Shown here piece after piece: positions 22,374-24,884 of a DNA stretch of 64,000 bases (the stretch's first letter is position 1; each line of letters opens with the position of its first letter). The DNA comes from Natronosalvus caseinilyticus (GTDB lineage Archaea; Halobacteriota; Halobacteria; Halobacteriales; Natrialbaceae). Where the stretch lies: assembly GCF_017357105.1 (NCBI RefSeq), contig NZ_CP071596.1, positions 3,162,001-3,226,000 on the forward strand, given 5' to 3'. The position numbers and the translations under genes were made by a program. A model generated the notes under the pieces. That model was not told where the DNA came from, ran no database searches, and saw nothing but the letters and a program-made list of their open reading frames with translations.

Positions 22374-23018
22374 ATGTTCGTTCTGATCAACCTCAAGACG
22401 TACCCGTGTGATCCTGTCGACGTCGCCGAAGCCGCCCGCGACGTCGACGAGACGACCGACGCCCGCATCGCCGTCGCTCCGCAGGCGACCCACCTCAAGC
22501 GAGTCGCCGAGACTGGGGTCGAGACCTGGGCCCAGCACGTCGATCCCATCGACTACGGGAGCAACACCGGGCACACGCTCGCGGAGGTAGTCGCGGACGC
22601 GGGCGCGACGGGCACGTTGATCAACCACTCCGAGCGCCGCCTGAAACTCGCCGACGTCGACGGCGCGATCCGGGCGGCCGAACGTGCGGGTCTCGAGACC
22701 GTCGTCTGTGCGAACAACCCGGCCCAGATCGGGGCGGCCGCGGCGCTCGGCCCCGACGCCGTCGCCGTCGAACCGCCGGAACTGATCGGCACCGGGACGC
22801 CCGTCAGCCAGGCCGATCCGGACGTCGTGGAGGACGCCGTCAACGCTGCCGCCCGGGTCGACGAGGACGTTACCGTGCTCTGTGGCGCGGGAATTAGCAC
22901 CGGCGAGGACGTCGTCGCCGCCAGCGACCTCGGCTCGAGTGGCGTCCTGCTCGCCAGCGGCGTCGCCAAGGCCGACGATCCCGCGGCGGCGCTCGCGGAT
23001 CTGGTCGAGCCGCTGTGA
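22374..23018 (+). CDS. tpiA: Triosephosphate isomerase (archaeal type)
   Basis: Interconverts glyceraldehyde 3-phosphate and dihydroxyacetone phosphate. At 214 residues it has the short archaeal length. It starts FVLINLKTY (Asn/Lys of the active site), carries the catalytic His in LINHSERR, the catalytic Glu in [11 protein letters not shown] and the phosphate-binding GAGIS and [11 protein letters not shown] loops. A TAACTATTTC element is about 30 bases upstream, so it is probably transcribed separately from the transporter. Confidence 0.95.
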
Positions 23019-23126: not shown

Positions 23127-23525
23127 ATGAGCGACGACGAGCCCCGCCCGAGCGCCGACGACACGTCGACTTCACACCCACTCGAGGTCACCTTAGAGAA
23201 CCGCCTGATGAGCCAGGGCGTCTACGTCACGTCGCTCGAGCGAACCGACGACCGAACGCGACTCGAGTACGAGATGGTGCATGACGTACCGGGCGTGACT
23301 TCCCACGAGGTCAGCACCGTCGTGCGAATCGTCTTGTCCGTCGCGGAGGAACGTGAGTGGGAGCCGGGAACGCTCGAAGCAATCTCTCGGTCCACCGAGG
23401 GGGACCGGCGCGGAACGTGGCGGGTCGAGCACGAGTGGTTCGATCAGCTGGGTGACGAACTCTCCGAACTCGAATTTTCGGACTTCGTTCTCGATACTAT
23501 TACGCACGAAGAGGATACAAAGTAG
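23127..23525 (+). CDS. Conserved haloarchaeal protein of unknown function
   Basis: A 132-residue acidic soluble protein. After 20 variable residues it reads LEVTLENRLMSQGVYVTSLERTDDRTRLEYEMV, then HEVSTVVRIVLSVAEE and a WRVEHEWFDQLGDELSELEFSDFVLDTI tail. The alternation suggests a small alpha/beta fold. No catalytic residues or signal peptide were recognised. A CTTTTTGTC element 28-38 bases upstream supports the ATG at 23127; the frame also opens at 23094. It precedes the TIR-domain gene by 45 bases on the same strand, so cotranscription is possible but unproven. Confidence 0.7.
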   Translation: MSDDEPRPSADDTSTSHPLEVTLENRLMSQGVYVTSLERTDDRTRLEYEMVHDVPGVTSHEVSTVVRIVLSVAEEREWEPGTLEAISRSTEGDRRGTWRVEHEWFDQLGDELSELEFSDFVLDTITHEEDTK

Positions 23526-23570
23526 TTACATTCATTACGGATTGCTGTCTTCGGTTCCGTAGAGCTACTG

Positions 23571-24191
23571 ATGACCGGAGAACAGGTGTTCGTCTCCCAC
23601 GCACCAGTCGACCTCGACCTCGTGCAGGAGCTGTTCTCGACGGTCAAGAACTTCCCGTTCGGCGTCCACATCGCCCTCGAGGAGATCGAATCCGGTCGAA
23701 CGCGCAAGCGACTCGAGGGTCGACTCGCCAACAGCGACGTCGTCGTTGCCGTACTCACCGAGGCCTCGGCGACCAGCCCCTGGGTGAACCAGGAGGTCGG
23801 GTACGCGCTCGCGAAGGGCATTCCGGTTCTTCCGCTATACGACGACGAGACGTTCCGCGGCGGGTTCATCGCCGATATCGAAGGGGTCGCCATCGATCGG
23901 GAGAACCTCTCGTTCACGATCTTCAACCTGCTCTGTCGACTTCGGAGCGAACTCTCCCCGCTCGGAGCACTGTCAGTCCCCAACTGGTACGTCCGATTCC
24001 CGTGTACGGTTCCGGACTGCGGCCACCCCGTGACGCTGGACATCACGCAGGGACAGACGAAACTCTGGAAACTCTCGGAACACGGCCAGTTTCTCGAGGC
24101 CACCTGCGAGGTCTGCGACGCCGCCTACGCCTTCGATCCGGCGACGATCGGGTTCGTCAGGCGTATGGACGGCCTCGAACGCACAGCGTGA
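23571..24191 (+). CDS. TIR-domain protein with C-terminal zinc ribbon
   Basis: A 206-residue protein. Residues 4-125 match a Toll/interleukin receptor fold: QVFVSHA strand A, a DLDLVQELFSTVKNF helix, SGRTRKRLEGRLANSDVVVAVLTEASATSPWVNQEVGYALAKGIPVLPLY. Glu75 in NQEVGYA occupies the position of the catalytic glutamate of NAD-cleaving TIR enzymes. Residues 140-185 add a zinc-ribbon-like module with Cys145, Cys150, His152, Cys179 and Cys182. Prokaryotic TIR proteins often act in phage defence by NAD destruction or signalling; here no partner defence gene is adjacent, so the role is inferred. It is convergent with a zinc-finger J-domain gene just three bases away. Confidence 0.8.
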   Translation: MTGEQVFVSHAPVDLDLVQELFSTVKNFPFGVHIALEEIESGRTRKRLEGRLANSDVVVAVLTEASATSPWVNQEVGYALAKGIPVLPLYDDETFRGGFIADIEGVAIDRENLSFTIFNLLCRLRSELSPLGALSVPNWYVRFPCTVPDCGHPVTLDITQGQTKLWKLSEHGQFLEATCEVCDAAYAFDPATIGFVRRMDGLERTA

Positions 24192-24194
24192 CGG

Positions 24195-24884
24195 TCACTT
24201 CAGCCGGTCGTAAGCCTCTTTGACGAGTTTGAACGCCGACTCGCTGCCGCTCTTCTTATCGGGGTGGGCGTGTTTGATCTGAGTCAGGAAGGCCTCGCGA
24301 AGCTCCTGGTTCGTCACGTCGTCGTCGACGCGGAGGATCTCCCGTGCTTCCGACTCGCGCATCTCGACGCTGCTGACGACGCCTTTCTCCTCGGCCAGCG
24401 CCTTGCAGTCCGGACACAGCTCCTCGGTTCGGCCGTCGATCGTCGTCACGTGATAGAGCTCTTCGTCGACGTACTCGTGACACTGGCTACAGAGCGTTCG
24501 ACAGGTCGCGAGCTCGGTCGTTTCCGGCGTTTCGTCGACGGACGCTCCGGTACCGTCGTCTAACTCATCCGATGCCGACGTTCCCGCATCCCCATGGCCG
24601 GGAACCTCCTCGAGGCAGTCGGGACAACACGTTATCACCGCTCCATCGGGCAACACGGCGTCCTCGAGGTCGTTTCGCGGAACGCTCGAGTGGCAGCCAT
24701 CGCACGTCCCGCGCGGCCGGTCGATCGACTCGAGTTTGCGGGCGGCCTCGCGGGCGTGGGGCGCACACGTCGGGCAGCACGCCAGCCGTTCTCCGTCCGG
24801 CATCGTCACGGTAGTAAGGTCCTCGAGCGCGACGACCCGTCCGCACCCGTCACACCGCTCACGGCGTTGGTCGACCACGGCCAT
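24195..24884 (-). CDS. Zinc-finger protein with C-terminal J domain
   Basis: A 229-residue protein with three CxxC-pair zinc modules (CDGCG...CCPTC, CDGCH...CCPDC, CSQCH...CPDC), a Glu/Thr/Ser linker and a C-terminal J domain with the diagnostic HPD in KHAHPDKK, followed by AFKLVKEAYDRLK. The J domain should stimulate an Hsp70 (DnaK at 31.8-33.7 kb) and the fingers would choose the client. Each finger follows a similar pattern (CDGC...D L ... PDG...CC..C), suggesting internal duplication. The J domain at the C-terminus is opposite to classical DnaJ. Confidence 0.85.
   Translation of the reverse strand: MAVVDQRRERCDGCGRVVALEDLTTVTMPDGERLACCPTCAPHAREAARKLESIDRPRGTCDGCHSSVPRNDLEDAVLPDGAVITCCPDCLEEVPGHGDAGTSASDELDDGTGASVDETPETTELATCRTLCSQCHEYVDEELYHVTTIDGRTEELCPDCKALAEEKGVVSSVEMRESEAREILRVDDDVTNQELREAFLTQIKHAHPDKKSGSESAFKLVKEAYDRLK

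Follow-up and report, generated by a model that had tools for sequence, protein, structure and literature searches.

TIRZ, a single-copy archaeal protein joining a TIR domain to a four-cysteine domain that resembles the Hsp33 redox switch

The gene which we here name TIRZ (TIR + zinc ribbon protein) encodes a previously undescribed architecture of a known protein kind, the TIR proteins, combined with the unusual lifestyle of a core gene. Its fold, a glutamate and four cysteines that never vary across two archaeal classes, the likeness of its C-terminal part to Hsp33, inheritance in single copy and an upstream promoter-like element are observed; from these we infer that TIRZ is catalytic, binds zinc, is gated by redox state and assembles, and what its physiological role may be. 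On this basis TIRZ is tentatively read as a stand-alone, Glu-dependent, NAD-consuming TIR protein that would be gated by a zinc-thiolate stress switch. Rather more doubtful is the broader proposal that Halobacteriota carry, as a core gene and outside immunity, a redox-gated TIR in which an NAD+-consuming TIR domain is fused to an Hsp33-like zinc-thiolate switch. The original prediction did not know a TIR-ribbon design as a described system. Indeed, no description of an archaeal TIR-zinc ribbon protein, or of a TIR with an Hsp33-type domain, was found in the open-licence papers searched, including the available parts of PMC7159879, PMC10663502, PMC7075850 and PMC11249213. The features discussed below lie in the window, by which we mean the whole stretch of DNA analysed (64,000 nucleotides).

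22374..23018, + strand: tpiA, triose-phosphate isomerase, context only (Pfam TIM, 135 bits)
23127..23525, + strand: gene of 132 aa, conserved neighbour (Pfam, NCBIfam and PADLOC give it no family above cut-off)
23527..23535, + strand: promoter-like element TACATTCAT, upstream of TIRZ (upstream motif pattern)
23571..24191, + strand: TIRZ, 206 aa (ORF, Pfam, AlphaFold model, orthologues)
23577..23954, + strand: TIR domain, residues 3-128 (TIR_2 and ThsB_TIR matches; PDB fold matches)
23781..23795, + strand: WVNQE (W71 to E75), WxxxE signature with the catalytic-type Glu (conservation)
23958..23981, + strand: interdomain linker of low confidence, residues 130-137 (pLDDT <50; linkers of methanogen relatives are shorter)
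23985..24164, + strand: putative four-Cys zinc domain, residues 139-198 (C145, C150, C179, C182), Hsp33 redox-switch-like (invariant Cys; Hsp33 as top PDB sequence match; shuffles and profile comparison)
24195..24884, - strand: Cys-rich J-domain protein, convergent, context only (Pfam DnaJ, 34.1 bits)

Occurrence, inheritance and genomic setting

The TIRZ reading frame is intact, starts with ATG and is present in one copy in the genome, where it is also the sole match to TIR_2 or ThsB_TIR. Among 391 sampled genomes of the class, TIRZ was found in 94, once in each, and a profile search returned the same 94. These comprise 87 of the 101 genomes of the window's family and seven more spread across two other families; 14 family genomes lack the gene. 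The named relatives at 66-81% identity come mostly from genera of Natrialbaceae such as Natronosalvus, Natrialba and Natrinema, and Halostella follows at 54% (a degenerate-pattern scan of genome contigs reaches close relatives only).

The order of genes at the locus is tpiA, the 132-aa gene, TIRZ and then the convergent J-domain gene. Upstream tpiA is found in 82 of the 86 TIRZ loci, and the J-domain gene adjoins TIRZ in 60 of them. The product of the latter has several Cys-rich knuckles and carries its J domain at the C-terminus; the presence of a zinc-binding J-protein beside a possible Hsp33-like switch may be a coincidence. The 132-aa gene occurs in 34 of 61 sampled relatives, TIRZ-less ones included, and is not thought to be part of a TIRZ system. 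Four fetched genomes without TIRZ (L073-L076) retain both tpiA and the 132-aa gene and are read as clean losses. In family f7 two small genes intervene, one of them PadR-like (named by inspection, without a family call), and in family f10 the setting is altogether different.

A TAsATTvAw element is located 30-40 bases upstream of TIRZ in 39 of 72 regions, with 0.47 expected after shuffling, and this pattern suggests that TIRZ may have a promoter of its own. The copy in the window is more divergent, as no site was found there, the TIRZ upstream region included, when the motif consensus was searched with three mismatches allowed. An operon of TIRZ with tpiA was judged unlikely in view of the promoter-like element and of the other contexts in f7 and f10. 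The original prediction would have been given up if conserved gene neighbourhoods had pointed to a housekeeping role. The conserved tpiA context does point that way in part; however, since TIRZ apparently has its own promoter, the neighbours do not reveal its function.

TIRZ is under purifying selection. Of ten hand-chosen close pairs, nine have a dN/dS of 0.075-0.159 for TIRZ, and the tenth has 0.416. These values are close to those of tpiA, at 0-0.107 in nine pairs; the 132-aa neighbour, at 0.144-0.512 in eight pairs, exceeds TIRZ in every pair having both. Pairwise distances of TIRZ and tpiA are correlated with a rho of 0.59, the best of 999 permutations reaching 0.34 (68 loci). Scans of viral contigs gave zero TIRZ relatives, while the phage scan gave one partial match, TIR part only, in an unannotated phage record, and the plasmid scan one full-length copy (Natrinema) and one partial, again the TIR part only (Megaira endosymbiont). 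In Natrinema thermotolerans (L117, CP031304.1) a 987-kb replicon called a plasmid carries the tpiA block with genes for histidinol-phosphate transaminase, adenylate kinase, tpiA, TIRZ, the J-domain protein and ornithine cyclodeaminase; this copy is the same housekeeping block as at the usual locus.

These data bear on the suggestion of the original prediction that TIRZ takes part in antiviral defence, for instance by abortive infection in which the ribbon would sense viral nucleic acid or protein and the TIR domain would deplete NAD+, all within one gene. Defence is the role of most prokaryotic TIR NADases that have been studied, the PADLOC ThsB model PDLC00436 matches 55 of 60 TIRZ members (best E 5e-10), and the losses in the 14 family genomes would also fit such a role. 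The defence effectors among prokaryotic TIR NADases are summarised in the accessible portion of PMC11249213. The antiviral explanation is nevertheless unlikely, as it is opposed by the near-core distribution, the single copy at a fixed housekeeping locus, the purifying selection, the distances that follow those of tpiA and the absence of relatives from the viral scans. A defence island as the default reading was rejected as well, on the tpiA context in the 82 of 86 loci and on one named record. TIRZ thus looks more like a vertically inherited, near-core gene of the haloarchaeal family, encoding a built-in stress enzyme, than like a mobile antivirus gene.

The haloarchaeal TIRZ profile was also searched against the phylum, in 392 genomes. 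Among the matches listed, those outside the class that take in the ribbon, ending at position 190-195 of 204, belong to families f19 and f33 only. The methyl-coenzyme M reductase alpha family is present in each of the nine such genomes that were tested, and the f19 and f33 carriers are therefore methanogens. At E 1e-8, matches occur in 97 of the 199 genomes of the methanogen class, and 87 of these matches are full-length in one frame (at least 172 of 186 positions). In four genomes (G466, G779, G792, G828) the match covers the TIR part alone, and the remaining matches that are not full-length are split or truncated; the split or truncated TIR-ribbon genes of G672, G761 and G721 are possibly pseudogenes or assembly errors. 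Twenty methanogen loci were fetched for detailed comparison, and their proteins are about 185-200 aa long and 22-27% identical to the window protein. No conserved neighbour was found in these loci, the broadest non-TIR cluster covering five of the 20 (one TIRZ gene was lost to the overlap filter). The two-domain TIR-ribbon architecture is common to two archaeal classes, without a fixed partner. The search for TIR-ribbon homologues proposed in the original prediction has hence been answered in haloarchaea and, at full length, in methanogens, and its remark that an obvious partner effector is missing holds for the neighbours in both groups.

The TIR domain and its glutamate

TIR_2 is the top-scoring Pfam family on TIRZ (48.1 bits, cut-off 28) and ThsB_TIR also passes (27.0 bits, cut-off 21.2), while zero families are over cut-off on the C-terminal half. 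The best NCBIfam match is Thoeris type III ThcB4, with 33.9 bits against the 220 required. The AlphaFold model, built on an input alignment of 60 orthologues, has a mean pLDDT of 83.4 and a pTM of 0.79. In a PDB fold search it is nearest to the TIR domains of SPARTA and SARM1 (Z about 14-15.6 over 121-136 residues; top match Z 15.6, 128 residues, 2.4 A), and plant and animal TIR domains are also matched. The TIR fold claimed originally from the letters is thereby confirmed at the level of the model and of the family match.

Glu75 is encoded at 23793-23795, within WVNQE, and in alignment it coincides with the glutamate of TIR domains of the BtTir and TcpB type. Conservation in haloarchaea was counted in 72 distinct proteins out of 86, some loci being one genome fetched twice, and W71, E75, G77 and A79 are unchanged in all 72. 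Counterparts of Glu75 and of the four Cys are kept in all 20 fetched methanogen proteins. When 12 haloarchaeal and 20 methanogen proteins were aligned (32 in total, approximately 25% cross-group identity), the columns that never change besides Met1 were E75, G77, A79, R125, W139, the four Cys and T192. That the catalytic Glu position is kept, as had been predicted, is well borne out by this invariance. In the available text of a TIR survey, the equivalent Glu, numbered 75 there too, is described as conserved in more than 70% of TIR domains and as critical for NADase activity in one TIR subclass (PMC7075850). Since it is common across TIR domains, Glu75 is what would be expected of an active TIR and is not unique to TIRZ. 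The TIR domain probably cuts NAD, for which it would use Glu75.

Two other readings of this domain have to be considered. MilB, DNPH1 and deoxyribosyltransferases match the model with Z about 13, near the values of the TIR matches, and Pfam Nuc_deoxyrib_tr scores 24.3 bits, below its cut-off. Together with the near-core distribution, this would be compatible with an enzyme of the DNPH1/MilB/deoxyribosyltransferase type, a nucleotide N-glycosidase working in nucleotide cleaning or salvage, but such an enzyme is quite improbable given that TIR_2 is the strongest family, both in the window protein and in 20 of 20 methanogen members. Equally remote is a non-catalytic TIR scaffold, which would merely assemble with partners. 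It is stated in the accessible part of PMC11249213 that some TIR domains work through assembly alone, and Trp71 is not kept in methanogens, a point that also weighs against the catalytic stress-switch reading. The scaffold, however, is at odds with a Glu75 that never varies in the 72 haloarchaeal or the 20 fetched methanogen proteins, and with the lack of a conserved partner gene.

The four-cysteine domain and its likeness to Hsp33

The C-terminal ribbon had been described as Cys/His-rich, and only the cysteines have stood. Cys145, Cys150, Cys179 and Cys182 are invariant in all 72 haloarchaeal proteins and His152 is present in just 42, and therefore the predicted metal site is C4 and not Cys/His. 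The first knuckle is C-x4-C in 72 of 72 haloarchaeal and C-x2-C in 20 of 20 methanogen proteins, and the residues between the knuckles number 28 and 27, respectively, without exception. In Hsp33 about 27-32 residues separate the knuckles, with 29-30 in the 12 domains sampled here. The second knuckle is CxxC in both TIRZ and Hsp33. In hhalign comparisons of the haloarchaeal and methanogen groups, the probability was 74% for the ribbon alone and 99.3% for the whole protein.

A combined ribbon profile (A4; 16 C-termini, eight haloarchaeal and eight methanogen) was searched against 177,635 distinct PDB sequences. The isolated Hsp33 redox switch 1xjh headed the ranking (E 4.1e-5), followed by E. 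coli Hsp33 (E 9.5e-4). With the haloarchaeal ribbon profile alone 1xjh was again on top, weakly (E 0.1), and with the methanogen profile alone Hsp33 (E 0.0077) was outranked by designed, repetitive TPR proteins and by a ribosomal ribbon. When E. coli Hsp33 was shuffled with every Cys fixed, the real score was reached by 0 of 5000, 0 of 4999 and 0 of 4988 shuffles with three ribbon profiles, a test conditional on Hsp33 having already been chosen as the best match. The two further profiles were A5 (12 sequences) and A6 (15 of the 20 methanogen sequences). Hsp33 from diverse bacteria was sampled at 13 loci, 12 of which gave usable domains (L124 gave none). With 500 shuffles each, most of the 12 domains had no shuffle attaining the real score, and the maximum was five with A4, 28 with A5 (the worst case) and 22 with A6. 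Profile-profile comparison of Hsp33 with the ribbon gave probabilities of 96.8, 96.0 and 85.3%, in one-against-one comparisons whose E-values are not database E-values. In the reverse direction, an Hsp33 profile run over the 10,829 ORFs of the loci gave 48 of the first 50 ranks, and 98 of the first 100, to TIRZ proteins, these rows being related to one another and not independent. The Hsp33 of Qingshengfaniella alkalisoli (L122, hslO) ends its switch domain nearly as haloarchaeal TIRZ does, with CxxCxxxYxxDPxTxGF.

Several results speak against an Hsp33-like switch. The first knuckles are mismatched, TIRZ scores only modestly in the reverse search, with a median of 11 bits and E 3e-4 at best, and rank 8 of that search goes to an unrelated ORF rich in CxxC (16.9 bits). 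Foldseek and VIA-align searches with the ribbon model alone had no useful match and Hsp33 was not among the matches listed, which is not the same as its being excluded, and other ribbons, including CpXC and PyrI_C, are weakly matched too. Binding to nucleic acid or to proteins is the common function of zinc ribbons, and the weak generic Pfam ribbon matches on methanogen members, such as CpXC, would agree with a TIR NADase or cyclase whose ordinary zinc ribbon binds a nucleic acid or protein partner and has no redox role. We do not favor this explanation and consider it improbable, as no other ribbon ranked as high as Hsp33 when the combined profile was searched against the PDB sequences. On sequence evidence, the TIRZ ribbon is probably a distant relative of the Hsp33 switch or a close functional analogue of it, most likely so in its second half.

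A possible stress switch and its counterparts among known systems

In Hsp33, as described in the available part of PMC10598452, zinc is held by four Cys, and oxidation leads to two disulfides, zinc release and unfolding. According to passages of an Hsp33 evolution paper, the C-terminal domain is an independent redox module, and its fusion to a domain of another kind may be possible; natural redox-domain-only proteins were not found, and Hsp33 is reported as absent from archaea (PMC7423844). By analogy, TIRZ would be a chromosomally fixed archaeal stress enzyme that acts alone. The reduced, zinc-bound four-Cys domain would hold the TIR domain inactive, and oxidation or unfolding of the zinc center would be relayed via the weakly ordered linker. 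The released TIR domains would then assemble and consume NAD+, with Glu75 cleaving NAD+ or a close nucleotide like the TIR NADases. The linker between TIR and ribbon (residues 130-137, AlphaFold pLDDT below 50) as the place where the switch would act is suggestive only, the model having low confidence there. A point against this mechanism is that methanogens are strict anaerobes as a rule; since they carry TIRZ too, the oxidant sensed there would have to differ.

Prokaryotic TIR enzymes are known chiefly as immune effectors. If the stress-switch reading is true, TIRZ would be a one-protein link from oxidative or unfolding stress to NAD+ loss outside immunity, with TIR chemistry serving the cell under stress and a single gene offering a simple model of how a TIR is switched. 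It would also mean that an Hsp33-like switch domain is used in archaea, and a TIR-borne domain of this kind would alter the picture, as drawn in the accessible text of PMC7423844, of no redox-domain-only proteins and no archaeal Hsp33.

Among known systems, the CpXC family (PF14353) has a CPxC...CxxC ribbon that is matched, over profile positions 1 to 50, by several methanogen members. The match is weak (eight of 20 methanogen proteins, best E 0.0035; the five scored are all below the 25.4-bit cut-off), and CpXC is not listed by Pfam for the window protein. Thoeris ThsB is similar to TIRZ in ThsB_TIR above cut-off and in a size of about 200 aa, and the PADLOC ThsB search gave the window protein at best 28 bits, over residues 4-81. 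Unlike ThsB, TIRZ has an extra zinc domain and no adjacent ThsA effector gene, its neighbours being tpiA, the 132-aa gene and the J-domain gene. When the whole genome was searched for a STALD domain of the ThsA type, neither it nor any control genome gave a match. The SPARTA layout of a TIR-APAZ fusion with a short Argonaute differs as well, since TIRZ is a TIR plus ribbon without an Argonaute neighbour. SARM1, AbTir, BtTir and SPARTA TIR-APAZ share with TIRZ the TIR fold and the Glu at the catalytic position, haloarchaeal TIRZ having WxxxE. These TIR NAD+ hydrolases and cyclases carry accessory domains where TIRZ has its C-terminal four-Cys domain, and compared with them TIRZ is partnerless and near-core. 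Hsp33 (HslO) has an N-terminal chaperone core that is absent from TIRZ, whose N-terminal part is the TIR domain, and its first knuckle is CxC, in contrast to CxxxxC or CxxC in the archaeal TIRZ. Nevertheless, TIRZ and Hsp33 share four Cys of similar spacing and a similar second half around CxxC, up to the CxxCxxxYxxDPxTxGF ending common to TIRZ and one alphaproteobacterial Hsp33.
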